A stretch of DNA of 64,000 bases from Methanomassiliicoccales archaeon RumEn M1 (GCA_001421185.1 LJKK01000009.1:1-64000), one strand, 5' to 3'. Counted from the first letter of the stretch, positions 5,533-15,572 are shown. Numbers and translations are program-made. The notes: generated by a model not told the origin, from the letters alone.

Positions 5533-8500
5533 TCAATAGCTCTTCCCGATGACCTCCCCGGTGCGTACCAGCTGCCCCGATGCGATGAGCCCCTCCACGG
5601 CCTCGAAGATCCTCCGGCGGGCCTCGGGGGACGCCCGCTTGTACCCATAGAGGGCGGTCGTCTTGTTGACCAGCCCCTTCTCGTCCAGGGACTCCTCGTC
5701 GAGCAGGCTCAGGATGGCCGCCTTGAGCTCTTCCATGCAGACGTACCACAGTTCGCGCCTCTCTCCCACCGCCGAGCTGCGCACCACCGCCTCGTCCATC
5801 CCGCAGGGCCATAGGAAGTTGTTCCTCCTGACGATGCGGCCCTGCTCGGCCAGGCGCTCGATGGTCCTTGCCTCCTCGTCCTGTCCGGCCACCTTGCGGA
5901 CGCCGGCGACCTTGTGCAGCTCCCGAACGCGTTCATGGACGACCAGCGGATGGACCGGGCCCTCGGCGGCCACCACTGCCTCGATGGCCTCGGCCAGCGC
6001 CTCGTCAGGCTGGTCGCGGAGCCTGCCGGTCAGTCCCGGATAGGCCTTCCAGTCCACCCGTCCGTACGGCACCACCTGGGCGGCCGTCCGGGCGGCGGGG
6101 GCGGGAGCGGCCAGGGAGGACGCCACTATGTCCCCGGACCCGTCATCGGTCTCCGAGGCCACCGTGACCTCATGGGCCATGCTCTGGGTCTCGGGCTCCA
6201 GCGGGGCGGTTTCCTCGACGGCCTCCAGGACCTCGGCGGCCATGTCAGCGTTCCGGGCGGCGGCGCCTTGGCCGCCTGGACGATCCGCTCGACCTCTCCC
6301 TCGGGATCCCTTACCCAGTCCGAGGACCAGGTGCGGTGGACGGTCCATCCCAGCTTGGCGAGCATCTCCTGGCGGAGGCGCTCCCGGTCGCGGACCGTGG
6401 GCCCGGAACGATAGGACGGTCCGTCCGTCTCCACCGCCAAGGCCATGGTACCAGCGTGCTCGACCGCCAGGTCGATCCGGTACCCGGAGCATCCCCAGCG
6501 GGGGAGGACCTTAAGCCCCTTGCTCTCGAGCGCCGCCACCATGGCCTCCTCCAGGGGCGACGCCCTGCCCTCCGGCTCGGCCGACAGGGCGTCCCGGGTC
6601 CCTCCGGCCATGGCATACTCCATGAACTGCCTGAGCAGTCTGGCGCCGGCCGAGGTGGGATGGAGGTCCTGCGGCAGTATGGACGATACCACGGTGAGGG
6701 ACTTGCGCGCCCTCGTCACCGCCACGTTCAGGCGGCGCTCCCCGCCCGCCCGGTTGAGCGGGCCTAGGGACTGATGCATCTTGCCCTTGGCGTCCTTGCC
6801 ATATCCCAGGCTGAACAGTATGACGTCCCGCTCGTCGCCCTGGATGCTCTCCAGGTTCTTCACGAAGAACTCCTCCTGGGCGCCCTCCTTGAAGTGCCTG
6901 GACAGTTCCGGCCGCTCCCTGATCCTCGCCTCCAGCTCCTCCAGGATGGCCATCTGCTGGGCCTCGCTGAAGGCGACCACGCCCAGCGACAGGCCGGGGC
7001 GCTCGCTGAAGTGCTGTATGACCATGTCCGCGACCTTGGCCGCCTCGGGAAGGTTCCGTCGGCTGGCGCCCCGGTCGTAGCAGCCCTCGGGGACGTGCAC
7101 GAAGCTGACCCCGCGCCCGTCGACGTTGCCGGCCGAGGGGAAGGTGAACAGGCGGCCGCCGTAGAAGTGGAGGTTGGAGAACGCGATCAGCGACTCATCC
7201 TCGCTGCGGTAGTGCCATCTCAGCATGCGTTGCGGCAGGCAGGACGAGCACTCGTCCAGGATGCTCTCCAGGTCCGGTATGTCCTCCTCCTCATCGAGGA
7301 CCTCGCGGAAGAAATCGGTCGGTGGCAGCTGCATGGTGTCGCCGACGATGATGACCTGTCGGCCCCTCATGATGGAGCCGATGGCGTCCTCCGGCCTGAT
7401 CTGGGACGCCTCGTCGAAGATGACCAGGTCGAAGCGGATGCGCGAAGGGTCGAGATGCATGCTTACCGAGAGGGGGCTCATCAGCAGGCATGGCTTCAGC
7501 TGAAGGATGGCGTCCCCGGCGCGGGTGAACAGCTCCCGCAGGGGCCGCAGTCCCTTCTTGCGGTTGACCTCGTGGCGAAGCACCCACAGGGAGGTGCCGA
7601 GCGAGGGGCTGGGATCGTTCATTAGCGACTCCCGCCGCTTCTGCAGCAGGGCGCCCAGGCGATCGGCCGCAACGTCCAGCTGCTGGCGGTCGAGGAGGCG
7701 GAACCTCTCCACCGCCTCGGCGTGCTCCTCCCGGCTGAACCCCCGCAGCCTGGCGTCGGTGGCCATGAGATGGTCGTGCCACAGGGAGTAGTAGCGTTTC
7801 CTCAGGGCGTCCCACAGCCCCTGGGAGGGAAGCTTGCCTTCCTCGGCCAGGGACAGCAGCTCATGCAGCCCCTGCTGGGCGCAGTCCCGGCGCAGACGGT
7901 TGATCTCCACCCATTCCTGCGCCCGGTCGATGGCGTCGAGATGTTCCCTGGCCCACGACCCGATCTCGTCCAGGCCCACGTCGCGGAGGGCCCTTCCGGC
8001 CCTCAGGGCGGTGAGGTCGAAGGACGATGCGGCTGCGTCCAGGCTGCCTTCCGTCAGAGACGCCGTCCTCTCCAGCTCTCTCAGCTCGGAGGCCGCCCTG
8101 TCCGACCCCTCGCCGGAGGCCATCAGGCCTTCCAGGGCGGCGCAGGGGGCACCATGTTGCTGACGGTAGGAATCGCACCAGTCCAATATGCTCTCCACCT
8201 CGCTCCAGTCGGTGCTGCGGCCGAAGAAGTGCTCCCCCAGCGCGCGGGAGCACTCCCCCTCCAGAGCGGCGACCGACGCCATACGCTCCTTCACGGCGAG
8301 GGCGGCGGCCACGTCGGCGGCGGCCTCCTCGAGGCTGGGCTTCTGCAGCGAGATGCGATGGCCCTTGAGGAGGCGTATGTCGCGGCGGTAGGAGGACCGC
8401 AGCCATCTCAGCGGGGAGCGGTGGACGGTGCCCATGCGCTGAGCGATCCCCTCCAGGTCGAGCTCCAGGACCCCCTCGTCATAGCGGGCCCGAAGATCTT

Positions 8501-10166
8501 CCATCTCCTTGTCCAGTGCTGCGTACGCCTCCCTCATGTCCCCCATCGTGCCTCGCAGCGTGTGGGGGTCCCTCAGCCAGCTGGCGTGGGGGCGCGGGGC
8601 GGCCAAGGCCAGCCGCAGGTGGGAGGCCAGGGCGGATATGTCAGCAAGGGTGGCCGGCCGGTCCATGTCGTAGCGCTCGGCCAGCGAGGACGACCTCTGC
8701 AATACCTCGTCGGCGAGGTCGCGGCACGAGGACAGGAGGCTCTCCAGCTCGGGTCGCGCGCTCACCTTCCAGGAGTCCAAGGTGCAATCCATCCAGGGGT
8801 GGCGCTGCCCCTTCCTCAGAAGGGACATGTTCCTCTCCAGCTCGCGCGCCAGCGGCGCCATGGCCTCCAGGTCCCGAACGCTCATGCGATGCAGGTCGGG
8901 GAAGTGGACGGACAGGTCGTGGGCGGCACGAAGGCCGACCAGCTCCGAGTTGATCTGATAGAACGACGCCTCCGCCCCCGGGCGCACCTCGTGGAGCGCA
9001 TCGGCGTGGTCGTTCAACCGCTTCCGCAGCCTGGCCAGCTCTTCCAGCTGGTCCCGCGGGGCGGTGGCCGGCGCCTTGGGGTGAAGACATCGCCCCAGCT
9101 CGGCCGCGACCTCCTGCCGGTTGGCCTTGCGGCTGTGCAGCTCCAGGCAGTACTCTCCCAGCCCCCTATCGTCAAGTCGTCTCTTGACGACCTCCAGGGC
9201 GGCCATCTTCTCCGACACGAACAGCACCGTCTTGCCGGCGGCCAGGGTCTCGGCTATGATGTTGGCGATCGTCTGGGACTTGCCCGTGCCCGGCGGTCCC
9301 TGCAGCACGAAGCTCGCTCCCTTCCTGGCCAGGGCCAAGGCCTCCTGCTGGCTGGAGTCGGCGTCCAGCACCTGGAACGTCTCCGAGGGGTCCCCACCGT
9401 CCAGCTCCTCGGGTGTTATCATCCCGGCTGGAGGCAGATGGGAGGGGCAGCCGGCCAGGGCCCGCACCACGGGATGTTCTAGAGCGAGGTCCCGGGACGC
9501 GGTGAGCTCCTCGTACATGACCATCTTGGCGAACGAGAACAGGCCGAGGTAGTTACCAGTGGTCACGGTCCATCCGGCCGGGGCGACCGCGTCCCGCACC
9601 TGCTTCATGACCGCATCCACCGAATCGGCCGTCTGCTCGGCCGGCATGGTCGGCAGCTCGAGGCCGTACTCGGTGCGCAGCCTGTGGGCCAGTATGGGGT
9701 TCACCACCGCACCGTCGTCGATGGCGGCCACGCGGTACGGCTGCAGCGGGCCGCTCCTCCGCAACTCTGACGGGATGAGGATCAGGGGAGAGCGAAGCCT
9801 CTGCCCGCCGACGTCCTTCCATTCCAGCATGCCAATGCTGAGGAACAGTATGTTGATGCCCTGCTCCCTCTGGGCCTCGCGGGCCTTGAGGCGCAGGTTC
9901 AGCAGCGTCCTGTCGACCACCGCTCGGTCGCGATCGGACAGCAACATGCCCGAGGCGTCCGTGCCGTCCCCGTCCAATCCGACCTCCAGCTCCTCGCCGC
10001 GCACCACCAGCCGATCGAAGATGACCGATCCGCCAGGCCTGCTGAGCCGGAGGACGCCGCTCGATTCCGTGAAGTTGATGAGCCTGTTCTTCTGGCTGGT
10101 GTCGATGAGGTTCCTGCGCCACCGCTCGAGCCTTCCAGCTACCACTAAGTCGTCTTGAGTGCTCAT
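5533..10166 (-). CDS. DUF4011 superfamily 1 helicase-nuclease with DUF3320 tail (one frameshift)
   Basis: The gene encodes a protein of about 1,540 residues. In order: an N-terminal DUF4011-type region (NLIDTSQKNRLINF); a UPF1-like SF1 helicase with Walker A GPPGTGKS, FDEASQ, VGDTMQLPP and VAVTRARKS; a PD-(D/E)XK/Vsr-like nuclease (RIDLAVE, LAVETDG); and a C-terminal DUF3320-type domain (VPYGRVDWKAYPG). A one-base deletion near 6254-6266 puts the last domain in another frame. The start at 10166 (MSTQDD) fits the conserved N terminus; an ATG at 10172 is equally possible. A TATA-like GTATAATTATC lies 30-45 bases upstream. Such proteins are suspected DNA-processing or anti-phage factors. The frameshift is probably a sequence error, not proven. 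Confidence 0.85.
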
Positions 10167-10280
10167 TCCCATCCGCGTAGGGAAAAGGATTCGTCGATAA
10201 TTATACTTCCGACGTGTATCACAGTCATCAAGAATGATATCCTCGGATCGGGCGCCCCAGCATGCTGGAGTTGGACAGCA

Positions 10281-10291
10281 TTTATATATAC
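10281..10291 (+). promoter_or_regulatory. TATA box of the endonuclease IV-like gene
   Basis: TTTATATATAC is a near-ideal archaeal TATA box. Transcription would begin near 10312, giving a leader of about 37 nt to the ATG at 10349. It faces away from the helicase gene, whose own promoter lies about 80 bp to the left. Confidence 0.65.
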
Positions 10292-10348
10292 TATCCCTCA
10301 TAATGAGTATCGCGCAGGGGAAACCTTGGCAGAGATGGTGGCATTATT

Positions 10349-11539
10349 ATGATCAGGTTTGGACCAGCGGGCATTCCACTTTCTTGTAAGGGGAGAACTT
10401 TGAGGGATGGCATCGAGGACGTGCATAGCCTCGGCCTCAACGCGATGGAGGTGCAGATGGTCCGGGTCAATGTCGTCGACCGCTTCCCCGACGAAGAGGA
10501 GGTAGGACTGACCCCTTCCGAGGTCATCAGCGATCTTATAGTAGAGATAGAGAGGGTCAAGGGGAAGAAGGAGATCAGGATAACCGATCCTCACGAGAAG
10601 ATCCGAGAGGACGACACCCTCATAACCCTCGCCTCCGGCCTGGTGCAGAACTTCCAGGAGGTGAAGGAGCTGGGGGACATGGGCCGGGAGATGGACGTCG
10701 AGCTGTCGATCCACACCCCCTACTACATGGACCTGGTCTCCAACTCCGATCTCACCGACCGGTGCATCGACAACATCAGATGGGCGGGCGTGATCGCCGA
10801 TCACATGGGGGGCACCATGGTGGTCACGCACCTCGGCCTGTACGGCGACGGGGACCGCAAGAAGGCCAAGAAGACCATCGTGGAGAACGTGGAGAGCTTC
10901 ATGGGGTGGTGGGAGGACAACAAGCTGAAACCGCTGGTGGGCCTGGAGACCTCCGGCCGCCAGGAAGTGTTCGGCTCCCTGGACGAGATCCTGGAGATCT
11001 GCGACAACATCAAGGGAACGGTGCCCGTCATCAACTTCGCCCATGTTCACGCCCGGGAGGCCGGCGGATTGAGGGAGCCGCAGGACTTCGGGGCCCTCCT
11101 GGACCGCGTGAAGGACTACGTGGACGGGCATTACTACACCCACTTCTCGGGCGTGGAGCACGAGGCCGGGAACGAGAAGAGGATCACGCCCATCAAGAAG
11201 GGCGACCTCCGCTTCGAGCCGCTGGCCGAGTTCCTCGCCGATGAGAACCCCGACATCTCGATCATCTCTTCGTCGCCTCTCCTGGAGCACGACGCCATGT
11301 ACATGAAAGTCATCTACGAGCGGGTGCTGACCAAGCGGGTGGCCAAGGAGGCGCGAGCGAAGAAGAGCAACAACAAGGCCCCCGAGGCCGCGGAGGACGA
11401 GGAGGACCTGGCGGAGGACCTCGAACTGGACGACATCGACAAGCCCCCCAGGATCAAGGAGCACTCCAAGGGGAGCAAGGCGGCGGAACCGAAGAAGGCG
11501 GCCCCCAAGAACGCGAAGAAGGCCGTCAAGAAGAAGTGA
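10349..11539 (+). CDS. Endonuclease IV-like TIM-barrel protein with lysine-rich tail
   Basis: Residues 1-330 form an AP-endonuclease-2/xylose-isomerase-like TIM barrel. It starts IRFGPAGIPLSCKGRTL and has candidate metal ligands in ELSIHTPYY, VVTHLGLYGDG, LVGLETSG, NFAHVHAREAGG, and HYYTHFSGVEH. Nfo enzymes cut DNA at abasic sites using three metal ions. The last 50 residues are a low-complexity acidic then lysine/alanine-rich tail (e.g. EDEEDLAEDLELD followed by many K), unusual for Nfo and perhaps a nucleic-acid tether. The next gene (hexuloisomerase) overlaps the stop codon, so the two are probably co-transcribed. Exact substrate is uncertain; many archaeal members are annotated only as TIM-barrel proteins. 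Confidence 0.75.
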   Translation: MIRFGPAGIPLSCKGRTLRDGIEDVHSLGLNAMEVQMVRVNVVDRFPDEEEVGLTPSEVISDLIVEIERVKGKKEIRITDPHEKIREDDTLITLASGLVQNFQEVKELGDMGREMDVELSIHTPYYMDLVSNSDLTDRCIDNIRWAGVIADHMGGTMVVTHLGLYGDGDRKKAKKTIVENVESFMGWWEDNKLKPLVGLETSGRQEVFGSLDEILEICDNIKGTVPVINFAHVHAREAGGLREPQDFGALLDRVKDYVDGHYYTHFSGVEHEAGNEKRITPIKKGDLRFEPLAEFLADENPDISIISSSPLLEHDAMYMKVIYERVLTKRVAKEARAKKSNNKAPEAAEDEEDLAEDLELDDIDKPPRIKEHSKGSKAAEPKKAAPKNAKKAVKKK

Positions 11540-11541
11540 TC

Positions 11542-12096
11542 ATGGAGGGGGACGCCGTGCAGACCTCGGCCCGATTCATCCTGGGGGAGATGGAGGCCGC
11601 CTTGGGCGCCATCAACGCCGATGCCCTGGAGGAGGCGGTCAGGGCCATCCTGTCGGCCGGGACCGTGTTCATCTACGGCGTCGGCCGCTCAGGCCTGATC
11701 GGGCAGGCGTTCGCCGTGCGCCTGGTGCAGCTGGGCATCGATGTCCACTTCGTCGGGGACATGACCACCCCCATCGTGTCGAGCGAGGACGTGGTGATCA
11801 TCGTCTCCAACACCGGCGAGACCATGTCGGCCGTGCAGACCGCGAACATCGTCCGCAGGGTGGGGGCCACGGTCATATCCATCACCGGCAACCCCAACTC
11901 CAAGCTGGGGCATGCCAGCAACATCGTCCTCGAGCTCTCGTCGTCACGGGACGAACAGAGGAAGAAGTACGCTCCCCTGGGAACCATCTTCGAGGGGGCG
12001 GCGCTGGTGCTGTTCGATTCGATCGTGTCCATCATAATGGAGCGGACGGGACAGAACGAGGCGTCCCTTCGCCGCCGCCATGCCATCTGGGTCTGA
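11542..12096 (+). CDS. hxlB: 6-phospho-3-hexuloisomerase
   Basis: A SIS-fold isomerase of 184 residues that interconverts arabino-hex-3-ulose 6-phosphate and fructose 6-phosphate. In archaea the ribulose-monophosphate pathway runs in reverse to make pentoses. Conserved elements are FIYGVGRSGLIGQAFAVRL, DMTTPIVSSEDVVIIVSNTGET and the C-terminal RRRHAIWV. The ATG at 11542 is chosen; a GTG at 11536 overlapping the upstream stop would add two residues. The partner hexulose-phosphate synthase is not in the window. The gene is convergent with the ubiquitin-like operon, 8 bp from the JAMM stop. Confidence 0.88.
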   Translation: MEGDAVQTSARFILGEMEAALGAINADALEEAVRAILSAGTVFIYGVGRSGLIGQAFAVRLVQLGIDVHFVGDMTTPIVSSEDVVIIVSNTGETMSAVQTANIVRRVGATVISITGNPNSKLGHASNIVLELSSSRDEQRKKYAPLGTIFEGAALVLFDSIVSIIMERTGQNEASLRRRHAIWV

Positions 12097-12104
12097 GGCG
12101 GCGA

Positions 12105-12650
12105 TCACTTAACGGCCCTTGCGCGCACCGTCCGCCCGTAGTAGGGGTTCTGGTGCTCGTCCCAATAGACGGCGAACGGCCGGCTCTCCACCCTGTCGTT
12201 CTCGAGGTAGAACGCCTCGATCTCCTTGTTCACCGGATCGATGACGATGGCCGAATGGTACCTCTGATTGAACATGGTGCGCTGGGTCTGGATGTCGGTG
12301 GCCGACATGAAGCAGGTGTAGGATGGATGCGAGTGGTACCATCCCACGATGACGTACTTGAAATCGCAGCTGTCCAGCTCCTCGAACAGCTTGTCGAACG
12401 CCGAGCGGTCGAAGCGCACGCTCACCGCGGTGGCGTCCAGGTCGGTGGTGGCCACGTCCCGCACGAGGGTATATTCCCTTCCCTGGTGCCTGCACACCGT
12501 CCCCAGTAGGAAGCCCATGACCTCCTTTCCCTCGCCCATGTGGGCCAGGGCATGGTTCCGGATCTTCTGCTCGGCCACCTTCGACAGGTACAGCTCGAAG
12601 CCCTTGGCCTCCTGGGTGGCGTACCTCTCGAGGGAGCGGCCGCTCAGCAC
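12105..12650 (-). CDS. JAMM/MPN+ metalloprotease of the ubiquitin-like operon
   Basis: This 181-residue protein is a Jab1/MPN+ zinc isopeptidase. The full catalytic signature is visible: Glu43 (KEVMG) and HxHx7SxxD as His106, His108, Ser116 and Asp119 (WYHSHPSYTCFMSATD). Relatives such as Rpn11, CSN5 and archaeal JAMM1 cut after the C-terminal Gly-Gly of ubiquitin-like proteins. As last gene of the E1-Ubl-E2-JAMM operon, its likely jobs are trimming the terminal Cys from the Ubl and removing Ubl from targets. The start is a GTG at 12650, which overlaps the stop of a 28-codon ORF. AAAGGA lies about 14 bases upstream. No other domain is attached. Confidence 0.92.
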   Translation of the reverse strand: MLSGRSLERYATQEAKGFELYLSKVAEQKIRNHALAHMGEGKEVMGFLLGTVCRHQGREYTLVRDVATTDLDATAVSVRFDRSAFDKLFEELDSCDFKYVIVGWYHSHPSYTCFMSATDIQTQRTMFNQRYHSAIVIDPVNKEIEAFYLENDRVESRPFAVYWDEHQNPYYGRTVRARAVK

Positions 12651-12730
12651 TTGTGCATCTTGGTCCTTTCCCGGGGCGGGGGCGGCCGCTCTCGGATGAC
12701 AACGTCGTCGCGGGCGGTGATGACCGGCAT
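12644..12730 (-). CDS. Possible 28-residue ORF between E2 and JAMM genes
   Basis: An ATG two bases after the E2 stop codon opens a frame of 28 codons (starting MPVITARDD, then PPPPRERTKMHKC). Its TGA overlaps the GTG start of the JAMM gene, so all three frames are linked by near-zero spacing. The peptide has a proline run and ends in Cys, like the Ubl. No homologue is recognised. It may be a real micro-protein, a coupling device that carries ribosomes from E2 to JAMM, or chance. Confidence 0.3.
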   Translation of the reverse strand: MPVITARDDVVIRERPPPPRERTKMHKC

Positions 12731-12732
12731 GC

Positions 12733-13236
12733 TCACAGCAGACGGACCCCCTTGCGGGGAGGCGTGACGATGGTGGGCGGCATCCTCCCCTTCCCGTTGT
12801 TGAGGTATGCCGCGGCGGCGGTGCAGCTGTCGGTGCCGAAGGGGCTCAGGGGGTTGGGACAGATCAGCATGGACTCGATGCCCTTGATGAAGGTGATCAG
12901 GGTGGAACCGAAGCTCCAACCGTCCAGCAGCTTGGTGCACACGTGCCCCCCGTCCTCCGGCATCATGATGTTGGGATGGAAGATGGGGGTCTGCCATACG
13001 ACCGTGGGCTTGGTGAACGGATAGTCCCTGCCGATGATCATGCGGAACCGGTGATGGTATCGGGTCGTCACCCTACCGTTGACCAGGCACAGGCTGGGAA
13101 CGTCGGTCAGCTCGATGTCCACCGGGAAGGGGAACTGGCTGTCGTCGGTGAACGGCTGGCTCTTTCTCAGATAGTCGGAGCAGATCCTGAACTCGTTGCG
13201 AACTCTTTCCCTGAGGACCACCTCGGGCAGGGGCAT
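12733..13236 (-). CDS. E2 ubiquitin-conjugating enzyme-like protein (UBC fold)
   Basis: A 167-residue protein with a textbook E2 core. The HPN motif is at residues 87-89 (TPIFHPNI), the catalytic Cys is at 100 (GGHVCTKLL), followed by Trp107-Ser108 and TL at 112-113 (GWSFGSTL). The downstream PNPLSPFGT resembles the eukaryotic PNP-x-x-P loop. It should accept the activated Ubl from the E1 as a thioester and pass it to lysines. The start is ATG 13236, which overlaps the Ubl stop in a TGATG junction; a GTG two codons earlier is the alternative. E2 proteins are rare in euryarchaeal lineages, and no RING-type E3 is encoded nearby. Confidence 0.93.
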   Translation of the reverse strand: MPLPEVVLRERVRNEFRICSDYLRKSQPFTDDSQFPFPVDIELTDVPSLCLVNGRVTTRYHHRFRMIIGRDYPFTKPTVVWQTPIFHPNIMMPEDGGHVCTKLLDGWSFGSTLITFIKGIESMLICPNPLSPFGTDSCTAAAAYLNNGKGRMPPTIVTPPRKGVRLL

Positions 13237-13478
13237 CAGCACCCGCCTTCCGGATCGGGGATCAGCTCGAGCTCGTCACCGTCGAGGATGGCGGCCTCCA
13301 CCACGGTCTGCTGCCCCCTCAGAAGCCTCTTCCCCCGGCGGAGCACGTACGCGCCAGCGTCCTTCTGCCAGTAGCCAGCGACGCCTTCGATGATCTCGTC
13401 CACGGTGTTCTCGCCTTCCAGCTCCATGTCCACGGTGGCGCCGCTCTCGGCGTTCCTCACTCTAACTTTCAGGGACAT
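13236..13478 (-). CDS. Ubiquitin-like beta-grasp protein ending Gly-Gly-Cys
   Basis: An 80-residue protein with the ubiquitin pattern: a first beta-hairpin (SLKVRVRNAESGATVDMEL), a helix (ENTVDEIIEGVAG), a GKRL turn, and a last strand (DGDELELI) leading to the tail PDPEGGC. The Gly78-Gly79 pair is where E1 adenylates and E2 conjugates such proteins; the extra Cys80 would have to be removed, which suits the JAMM encoded two genes on. It is less like ubiquitin in sequence than in layout. The ATG at 13478 is preferred over an upstream TTG (13508) because a TATA-like box near 13510 predicts a leaderless start here. Confidence 0.88.
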   Translation of the reverse strand: MSLKVRVRNAESGATVDMELEGENTVDEIIEGVAGYWQKDAGAYVLRRGKRLLRGQQTVVEAAILDGDELELIPDPEGGC

Positions 13479-13479
13479 A

Positions 13480-13514
13480 TTATCAGATGATAAAAATATT
13501 CTAAGCAATTAAAG
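13480..13514 (-). promoter_or_regulatory. Internal promoter and palindrome before the Ubl gene
   Basis: On the minus strand CTTTAATTGC (13505-13514) is a candidate TATA box, 26 bases before a start site near 13484, just ahead of the Ubl ATG at 13478. An inverted repeat TTATCA-GA-TGATAA occupies 13480-13493, exactly over the predicted start site. It could be an operator that lets Ubl-E2-JAMM be controlled apart from the E1. The 49-bp E1-Ubl gap is the widest in the operon. Confidence 0.45.
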
Positions 13515-13527
13515 GTATGGTCTTCAA

Positions 13528-14349
13528 TCAGCAAATCTGATCATAAGCCATGTGGTTGGGGCACGAAGGGTCGAGGGACAGCTCCAGTTCCATCCACCTT
13601 CCGGCCAGGCCGTCATAGTGGGCCACGTGGGAGATGCAGCGGTCGGCACGCCCGCTCAGCACCTTGATGGCCTCCCTAACCTGCACCGCGGCGATGATGG
13701 CCGTGGTGGTGATCTCGGCCGCGATCTTGGGCTGGAAGAACGTGACGTCCCCGCCGGTGCAGGAGTGGCGAAGGTCCAGCGTCCGGTAGTGCGTGCTGTT
13801 CATCCCGCATTGCAGGCATGGGGTGGAAGGAGGGAGCACCACCTGGACCTTGCCGGTCGTTCCGCGGGTCCCGCCGTCGATGTACGGCGTCCCGCGGTAG
13901 AACGAATGGGCGTTGACATGCAGACGGGCGGCGATGTTGTCCAGGCATCCCAGGACGATGTCGTACGAGCTCCAGGCGTCCTCGGGGAGGTCTTCCACCC
14001 GCCCCACCATCGGTCGGACGTCCGCTCCCGGGTCCAGCTCCCTGGCCCGGTCGGCCACCACCTCGGCCTTGAGGGCGCCCTGCGATGCGTCCTCCTCGCG
14101 GAAGAACACGCATCGGTTGAGGTTGGAGCGCACCACATGGTCCATGTCCACCACGTCCACGCGCCGCACGCCCGACAGCACGAGGTCCTTGACCGCCTCG
14201 TTGCCCAACGCCCCTGCGCCTACCACCAGCACCCTGGCCGAGGCCACCCTCTCCATATCCAGCCAATCGATGCGGCGGGAGCGCTCCCAACGGTCGGCGT
14301 CGATGCTATCGGTCCGAAGGCCCACGCCTCTTGAACGCTGGAGCGGCAT
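13528..14349 (-). CDS. E1-like ubiquitin-activating enzyme (ThiF/MoeB/UBA fold)
   Basis: A 273-residue adenylating enzyme. It has the RWERSRRIDW N-terminal helix, the nucleotide loop GAGALG (44-49), DMDHVVRSNLNR with the ATP-contacting Asp, Asn and Arg, and the CLDN motif (135-138). A zinc site is suggested by CLQC (178-181) and CPNH (263-266). Cys197 (RHSCTGG) is the candidate thioester cysteine. It should activate the Gly-Gly tail of the adjacent Ubl. It is the first gene of the operon, divergent from trpS. An ATG at 14349 is used; GTG at 14325 is possible. Taken alone it could pass for MoeB or ThiF; the operon makes the E1 role likely. Confidence 0.9.
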   Translation of the reverse strand: MPLQRSRGVGLRTDSIDADRWERSRRIDWLDMERVASARVLVVGAGALGNEAVKDLVLSGVRRVDVVDMDHVVRSNLNRCVFFREEDASQGALKAEVVADRARELDPGADVRPMVGRVEDLPEDAWSSYDIVLGCLDNIAARLHVNAHSFYRGTPYIDGGTRGTTGKVQVVLPPSTPCLQCGMNSTHYRTLDLRHSCTGGDVTFFQPKIAAEITTTAIIAAVQVREAIKVLSGRADRCISHVAHYDGLAGRWMELELSLDPSCPNHMAYDQIC

Positions 14350-14390: not shown

Positions 14391-14450
14391 GCCCTCGTTC
14401 CGCCAGCTCTCAAAAGTTTTAAAGCACTCCATGCGCTCATGCCGTCCAGC

Positions 14451-15572
14451 ATGGTTGAGGACACCTCGTTCACAGTGACCCCCTGGGAGGTCAGCGGAGA
14501 GATCGACTACGATCTGCTCATCGAGAAGTTCGGCACCAAGCGCATCGACCAGGCACTGGTGGACCGGATGGCCAAGTACGGTCCGATCCATCCCCTGATG
14601 CGCCGTGGGGTGGTCTACTCCCACCGCGACATGGACTGGGTGCTGGACCGCTACGACGCCGGCGAGCCTTTCTACCTGTACACTGGCCGGGGCCCGTCAG
14701 GCCAGACCCATTTGGGCCACCTGATGCCCTGGCTGTTCACCAAGCATCTGCAGGACGTCTTCGACGTCCCTCTGTACTTCCAGCTGACCGACGACGAGAA
14801 GTTCCTGTTCAACGAAGGCCTGACCCTGGACGATACCAGGGACATGGCGTACCAGAACATGCTCGACGTCATCGCCCTGGGCTTCGACCCGAAGAAGACC
14901 AAGATCTTCCTCGACACCGAGTACATCCACAACCTATACCCGTTCGCCCTGAAGGTGGCCAAGAAGGTCACCTTCTCGACGGCCAAGGCGGTGTTCGGGT
15001 TCGAGAACAGCACCAACATCGGGAGCATATTCTACACCAGCATCCAGGCGGCGCCCGCGTTCCTGGGCTCCGCCCACGCCGGGCGCAACCTGCCCTGCCT
15101 CATACCCTGCGGCATCGACCAGGACCCTCATTTCAGGGTCGCCAGGGACATCGCCCCATCGCTCGGCTACTACAAGCCGGCGCTGCTGCACAACAAGATG
15201 TTCCCCGGGCTGGGCGGAGGGGACAAGATGTCCTCCTCGCAGCCGTCCAGTACCATATACACCACCGACCCGCCGAAGGTGGTGCGCAAGAAGATCAACA
15301 CCGCCTTCACGGGCGGCGCCGTAACGGTCGAGGAGCAGAGGAAGAGCGGCGGAAGGCCCGAGGTCTGCTCGGTGTTCAAGTACAAGTTCTATCTGTTCGA
15401 GCCGGACGACCAGAAGCTCGATGAGCTGTACGACCGATGCAAGAAGGGCGAGGTGCTGTGCGGCGAATGCAAGAAGAGCCTCGGCGACGCGGTGGCCAGT
15501 TTCCTCGAGAAGCACCAGGAGGCCCGGGAGAAGGCCAAGGACCGCATCGACGAGTTCGTCCTGAGGGACTGA
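14451..15572 (+). CDS. trpS: Tryptophanyl-tRNA synthetase (archaeal/eukaryotic type)
   Basis: A class I aminoacyl-tRNA synthetase charging tRNA-Trp. It has the HIGH-like motif HLGH in SGQTHLGHLMPW, KMSSS in GGGDKMSSSQPSS, and the archaeal/eukaryotic N-terminal extension (TPWEVSGEIDYDLLIEKFG). Total length is 373 residues with start at 14451; an ATG four codons earlier (14439) is also open. The TATA box TTTTAAAG at 14416-14423 predicts a start near 14447, favouring 14451. The stop overlaps the next ATG (TGATG). Its tRNA-Trp substrate gene lies near the right end of this window. Confidence 0.96.
   Translation: MVEDTSFTVTPWEVSGEIDYDLLIEKFGTKRIDQALVDRMAKYGPIHPLMRRGVVYSHRDMDWVLDRYDAGEPFYLYTGRGPSGQTHLGHLMPWLFTKHLQDVFDVPLYFQLTDDEKFLFNEGLTLDDTRDMAYQNMLDVIALGFDPKKTKIFLDTEYIHNLYPFALKVAKKVTFSTAKAVFGFENSTNIGSIFYTSIQAAPAFLGSAHAGRNLPCLIPCGIDQDPHFRVARDIAPSLGYYKPALLHNKMFPGLGGGDKMSSSQPSSTIYTTDPPKVVRKKINTAFTGGAVTVEEQRKSGGRPEVCSVFKYKFYLFEPDDQKLDELYDRCKKGEVLCGECKKSLGDAVASFLEKHQEAREKAKDRIDEFVLRD

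Follow-up and report, generated by a model that had tools for sequence, protein, structure and literature searches.

We describe here an operon in Methanomassiliicoccales archaeon RumEn M1 that very probably encodes a reversible ubiquitin-like conjugation system, with predicted catalytic activities and putative protein targets. The operon lies within a stretch of 64,000 nucleotides (GCA_001421185.1, LJKK01000009.1:1-64000; hereafter, the window), where four adjacent genes on the minus strand, at positions 12105-14349, encode, in this order, an E1-like adenylating enzyme, a ubiquitin-like modifier (Ubl), an E2 conjugating enzyme and a JAMM metalloprotease. The observations that bear on this reading are the folds of the proteins, their catalytic residues, the gene order, the co-evolution of the Ubl tail with the JAMM, the loss of the Gly-Gly end that goes with the loss of E1 and E2, and the co-occurrence and neighbourhood of a RING/zinc-ribbon protein. 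The features of a ubiquitin-type E1-E2 system are present, namely an E1 with the nucleotide-binding loop and the cysteine, an E2 of the UBC fold with the HPN motif and the cysteine, and a beta-grasp modifier that ends in Gly-Gly. A first-pass annotation of the window had named the four adjacent genes, identified the catalytic residues of the E1, the E2 and the JAMM, and anticipated matches to ThiF, beta-grasp, UBC and MPN+ families, a Methanomassiliicoccales-like host and conservation of the gene order in that order of archaea; all of this was borne out by the results below. The window indeed belongs to Methanomassiliicoccales, the nearest named relative being Methanomassiliicoccus sp. UBA345, with an E2 that is 81% identical.

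The E1 matches ThiF (PF00899, E=1.2e-52) above the Pfam cut-off and, among solved structures, is closest to the eukaryotic Uba1 and Uba2 (9e-27). Residue conservation was counted over 116-146 relatives, depending on the protein. Cys197 of the E1 is kept in 113 of 117 relatives and the GxG loop in 115/115, and the predicted zinc ligands are nearly as constant (C178 and C181, 116/116; C263, 117/117; H266, 108/117). The E2 likewise exceeds the Pfam cut-off for UQ_con (PF00179, E=1.9e-12), its closest solved structures being UBE2M and UBE2N (5e-8). An AlphaFold2 model of the E2, with a predicted local distance difference test score (pLDDT) of 90, retrieved UBE2S and UBC4 in Foldseek with a probability of 1.0, at modest template modelling (TM) scores of about 0.5-0.7. 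The HPN motif is invariant (146/146) and the catalytic Cys100 is found in 144 of 146 sequences; an additional conserved cysteine, Cys138, is located 38 residues past the catalytic one (139/146).

Given that the E1 is short and of the MoeB/ThiF type, that the ThiF, MoeB and SAMP E1 models all score, each under its cut-off, and that a Gly-Gly end is compatible with either use, one could envisage a sulfur carrier system of the ThiS/MoaD/Urm1/SAMP type, in which the Ubl forms a thiocarboxylate for the thiolation of tRNA or cofactors and conjugation is secondary. We consider such a function quite improbable: a conserved, intact E2, with HPN, cysteine and tryptophan all in place, is co-encoded although sulfur transfer needs none, a RING protein co-occurs with the system, and a second ThiF/MoeB-like enzyme exists in the same genomes as well as in those that lack the operon. 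The E1 of the operon forms a clade apart from this second enzyme, and its split from more divergent sequences of the phylum has moderate support.

Searched as a single sequence, the Ubl gave a borderline match to YukD (PF08817, 1e-5, 26.7 bits, with the cut-off at 27). The family profile matches ubiquitin in the PDB, with the lowest E-values partly reflecting summed polyubiquitin repeats and single ubiquitins scoring about 0.01-0.03. The beta-grasp fold is settled by the AlphaFold2 model (pLDDT 88), which in Foldseek retrieved SUMO, Hub1, Caldiarchaeum Ub and ISG15 at TM scores of 0.8-0.87. The protein ends in PDPxGG, in which both the PDP and the GG are invariant across 124/124 distinct sequences, followed by a variable tail of 0-10 residues that in the window amounts to a single cysteine. 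The earlier description of a beta-grasp protein ending in Gly-Gly-Cys thus holds for the fold and for the Gly-Gly, whereas the final cysteine is not conserved; because the tail after the Gly-Gly is variable or absent, a special role of this cysteine was ruled out. Several variants of the Ubl gene were also recorded. At three loci (L062, L063 and L065), the Ubl makes up the C-terminal portion of a frame of 355-378 aa, the N-terminal portion of which contains zinc ribbons, plus a DUF835 domain in L062, and the JAMM reading frame at these loci stays open over 637-890 aa. In family f25, a second copy of the Ubl-E2 pair is found at two loci (L083 and L085), accompanied by a more distant E1 and by no JAMM, and the Ubl of these copies stops exactly at Gly-Gly.

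The JAMM protein scores above the Pfam cut-off for JAB (PF01398, 9e-15) and is closest, among solved structures, to Caldiarchaeum Rpn11 (6fjv, 1.3e-13). The metal site of the Rpn11/CSN5 type, E...HxH...S..D, is present and kept in at least 127/130 relatives (E43, 131/133; H106 and H108, 128/131; S116, 127/130; D119, 129/130), and the operon JAMM is the sole JAB protein found in the genome. We detected a significant association between this enzyme and the Ubl tail. Among 118 distinct Ubls accompanied by an E2, 70 carry a tail and adjoin an intact JAMM, 39 have a JAMM and no tail, 9 have neither a tail nor an intact JAMM, and none combines a tail with the lack of a JAMM (Fisher p=2e-4). All nine Ubls without an intact JAMM, which represent about three independent events, end exactly at GG; the JAMM gene is absent from these loci or, in 3 of the 9, persists as a remnant without the HxH motif, and G036 and G037, which belong to this group and are both complete or nearly so, had no JAB match anywhere in the genome. 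Because a tail is found only where the JAMM is intact, we tie the JAMM to tail removal, an activity that has been shown biochemically for Caldiarchaeum Rpn11 (PMC5654768). The frequent retention of the JAMM where there is no tail suggests, in addition, a second job in deconjugation.

The evolutionary conservation of the operon as a unit is equally pronounced. The order E1-Ubl-E2-JAMM is kept in 30/30 of the nearest loci, beside the SIS-domain gene or trpS, with one locus cut by a contig end, and about 180 further loci from this and other orders of Thermoplasmata mostly show the same gene order in the same place. It recurs in nearly all relatives with a contig across the site, with few specific gene losses, and this recurrence is far beyond chance. 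The E2 is present in 97 of the 147 genomes of the order, a count that leaves out G096, where a weak match (E=0.005) contains an internal stop. Ubl-E2-JAMM is also found in other classes of the phylum, with the E1 upstream, downstream or elsewhere, and in a phylum sample of 390 genomes, PF00179 was detected in 82 and the Ubl in 88.

This distribution bears directly on the choice between the two roles, regulation and defence, that the first-pass annotation had entertained. A role in antiviral defence, with virus particles as the target of conjugation, has been proposed for the Bil operons of bacteria and would fit the four kinds of protein, which are the same as those of Bil, and a helicase/nuclease of the PDC-S37/ProA/Hhe family two genes away. 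The operon is, however, present throughout the order in a fixed place, whereas the helicase is patchy and is retained in all four operon-losing genomes of the window's family; the E2 and the Ubl had no match in PADLOC (the 2023 version of which may not hold Bil models), and a scan of viral_contigs yielded no viral homologue. We therefore regard a defence function as remote, the operon being core, vertically inherited machinery and not a defence cassette, and favour regulation or housekeeping. Two more specific proposals were rejected: a defence island defined by the PDC-S37/ProA-like helicase, since this gene persists in genomes that have lost the operon, and a viral origin, the viral_contigs scan having given no relative. 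In some relatives, the helicase-nuclease gene lies beside the operon, yet it is also found in genomes without it.

Genomes of the order that lack E2 and JAMM often retain an orphan Ubl, as detected by the profile search. In all 14 such genomes that were inspected (L303-L316), the orphan lacks the GG, with ends such as IPDPDSDP, IPDPSMLR or LVHER, and in 13 of the 14 the gene is still located beside the SIS-domain and AP-endonuclease genes or trpS. The Gly-Gly is thus free to vanish once E1 and E2 are lost, as predicted for a cascade that acts on that end, and the persistence of the fold in these orphans suggests a new, non-covalent role.

A further candidate component is the RING/zinc-ribbon protein, the gene of which is unlinked to the operon (G000 contig C6, 59426-60190; also L321, 1915-2691). 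In most relatives, this protein contains the RING pattern C-x2-C, C-x-C-G, H-x2-C, C-x2-C. With PF13639 alone too weak as a RING detector, we built our own profiles, A3 and A4, requiring coverage of the RING and excluding A3 matches limited to the zinc ribbons (profile positions 114-223). Across the 147 genomes, RING and E2 occur together in 91, E2 alone in 6 (all of them under 90% complete), RING alone in 2 and neither in 48; when the comparison is restricted to genomes at least 90% complete, the RING is found in 49/49 with E2 as opposed to 1/25 without. Joint losses of the RING and the system are seen within genus g1 and in g3, g13, g15 and g18, which makes at least about four by genus grouping. 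The patchy helicase neighbour, counted by full-length matches, served as a control and was found in 30 of 97 genomes with E2 and 4 of 50 without (p=0.002); since this gene is associated as well, shared ancestry gives some association, but far less than that of the RING.

The RING gene is found upstream of the gene for the proteasome alpha subunit, in the same orientation. In the 18 genomes with both genes on one contig, the distance is 0.5-2 kb in 17 and 5.5 kb in the other, and the block around the RING gene comprises Pop5, proteasome alpha, SBDS, Rrp4 and Rrp41. Genomes without the operon have this block intact minus the RING, except for G122, in which the RING is kept. Physical linkage to the conjugation genes, although not seen in the window operon, occurs in other lineages, where this RING domain stands at the end of a large frame directly upstream of the Ubl (L082 and L084) or of the E2 (L092), or is encoded next to, and overlapping, the E1 (L091). 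From the co-occurrence and this linkage, the protein emerges as a candidate partner with a weak RING match, and its genomic association makes it likely that it acts as an E3. At three loci (L293, L295 and L297), large proteins with Ig-like (immunoglobulin-like) or other predicted extracellular regions are followed by transmembrane helices and then by a RING-like domain, a layout that resembles membrane E3s.

Several considerations weigh against a pathway that runs through this RING protein to the proteasome. The matches of the candidate to RING models are weak (1e-3 to 1e-4, below the cut-off), and the family of the window itself lacks a Cys or His at the fourth ligand position (CSSG for CxCG). 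RING domains of the same type are also encoded by other Thermoplasmata that have no E2, and of the 82 genomes with an E2 in the phylum sample, 14 gave no RING match. Because the proteasome genes belong to a conserved superoperon, the position of the RING gene close to them could be coincidental. The system is lost from some genomes that retain proteasomes, and hence it is not essential there. Finally, when the joint losses of GG and RING are grouped by genus, they amount to about four or five independent events, and with so few events the p-values overstate the evidence. The occurrence of RING-type domains in E2-less genomes, together with the predicted transmembrane helix in many RING homologues (L298, L301, L302 and L297), would also fit real conjugation that is non-degradative, for example at the membrane, with the RING and the proteasome neighbourhood unrelated. 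This alternative appears unlikely in view of the near-perfect co-occurrence of RING and E2 in the more complete genomes, the clean loss of the RING gene alone from the proteasome block, and the physical linkage of the RING to Ubl or E2 in other lineages.

Taken together, these results can be cast as a model of reversible conjugation. Under this model, the JAMM would expose the Gly-Gly of the Ubl by trimming off the short tail; the E1 would adenylate this end and load the Ubl on Cys197; and the Ubl would then be passed to Cys100 of the E2 and onward to amino groups of target proteins, a transfer probably aided by the RING/zinc-ribbon protein, with the JAMM also taking the tag off. The JAMM, E1 and E2 steps are proposed from the residues and the established chemistry of the respective families. 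The likeliest role would be housekeeping protein quality control or regulated turnover via the archaeal proteasome, and the neighbourhood of the RING gene leaves the proteasome with an even chance of being the destination of the tag. More broadly, Thermoplasmatota may or may not, in about equal measure, possess a complete, vertically inherited ubiquitin-proteasome pathway outside Asgard and Aigarchaeota that has been dismantled stepwise in several clades, leaving a Gly-Gly-less relic with a new non-covalent role. If they do, the pathway would consist of the Ubl, E1, E2 and JAMM along with a RING/zinc-ribbon protein as the E3, the gene of which lies next to that of the proteasome alpha subunit.

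The coordinates of the operon genes and their neighbours are given in the table below. The operon site lies between trpS and the SIS-domain gene, and the positions of trpS, the SIS-domain gene and the AP_endonuc_2 gene are unchanged in relatives. We placed the start of the Ubl at the ATG at 13478, refined from the frame 13236-13508, and that of the E2 at the ATG at 13236, which shares a TGATG overlap with the Ubl stop; the JAMM starts with GTG. The gap between E1 and Ubl (13479-13527) is AT-rich and is a candidate for a separate Ubl promoter.

Table. Genes of the conjugation operon and neighbouring genes in the window
Feature	Coordinates	Strand	Description
E1-like adenylating enzyme	13528..14349	-	273 aa, GxGALG nucleotide loop, catalytic Cys197
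Ubl modifier, beta-grasp	13236..13478	-	80 aa, end ...LIPDPEGG + one-residue tail (Cys)
E2 conjugating enzyme	12733..13236	-	167 aa, HPN 87-89, catalytic Cys100, invariant W107
JAMM/MPN+ metalloprotease	12105..12650	-	181 aa, E43, H106-x-H108, S116, D119
Tryptophanyl-tRNA synthetase (trpS), divergent syntenic neighbour	14439..15572	+	NF008927 5e-156
SIS-domain protein, 6-phospho-3-hexuloisomerase-like, convergent neighbour	11536..12096	+	TIGR03127 1e-45, just under cut-off
AP_endonuc_2 TIM-barrel protein, syntenic neighbour	10349..11539	+	PF01261 8.5e-16
Helicase-nuclease DUF4011/AAA/MTES_1575	6126-10301	-	1391 aa, related to PDC-S37, ProA, Hhe defence proteins

The literature searched contained no description of such an operon for either Methanomassiliicoccales or Thermoplasmatota, the supplementary files of PMC5654768 (gene clusters I-III) and PMC6043591 and most subscription papers being outside our reach. 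Its gain and loss in step with the RING protein encoded near the proteasome gene make it a candidate for an undescribed ubiquitin-proteasome-like pathway outside the lineages known for such systems. Archaeal E1-E2 cascades have so far come mainly from uncultured Caldiarchaeum and Asgard archaea, and they bear on the origin of the eukaryotic ubiquitin system. Methanomassiliicoccales has cultivated members, and therefore the targets in vivo, deletion phenotypes and the link to the proteasome are all testable. The losses of the JAMM, the Gly-Gly and the RING amount to natural experiments on the dismantling of such a cascade.

Among known systems, the haloarchaeal SAMP system (UbaA, SAMPs and JAMM1) resembles the operon in its single-domain E1, beta-grasp protein ending in GG, and JAMM. 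To our knowledge, SAMP systems have no E2, in contrast to the operon, and the SAMP E1 and desampylase models score well below their cut-offs here (79.6 bits against 450, and 39 against 130, respectively). The Bil operon (BilABCD) and related bacterial operons likewise combine Ubl, E1, E2 and JAMM; however, the E1 described here has one adenylation domain, the E2 is of the HPN type and the operon is not mobile, whereas in the Bil operon the E1 (BilD) has two domains and BilB carries a CEHH motif (PMC11354881). The prokaryotic operons in which the JAMM-3 group is found with Ub, E1 and E2 homologues (PMC6043591, the main text of which names no organisms) have the same gene content, and a JAMM closest to Rpn11/CSN5. 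Caldiarchaeum and Asgard archaea are known to encode Ub, E1, E2, RING and JAMM (PMC5654768), and the operons of Caldiarchaeum subterraneum and Asgard archaea (James et al. 2017, PMC5654768; Fuchs et al. 2018, PMC6043591) are alike in having a Ubl with a tail after the GG, an E1, a canonical E2, an Rpn11-like JAMM and a RING candidate; the JAMM of Caldiarchaeum trims the Ub precursor, as is predicted here. Compared with these operons, the present system differs in its short, single-domain E1, the order E1-Ubl-E2-JAMM, a RING gene that lies outside the operon, next to the gene for the proteasome alpha subunit, and a wide vertical spread in a different phylum.

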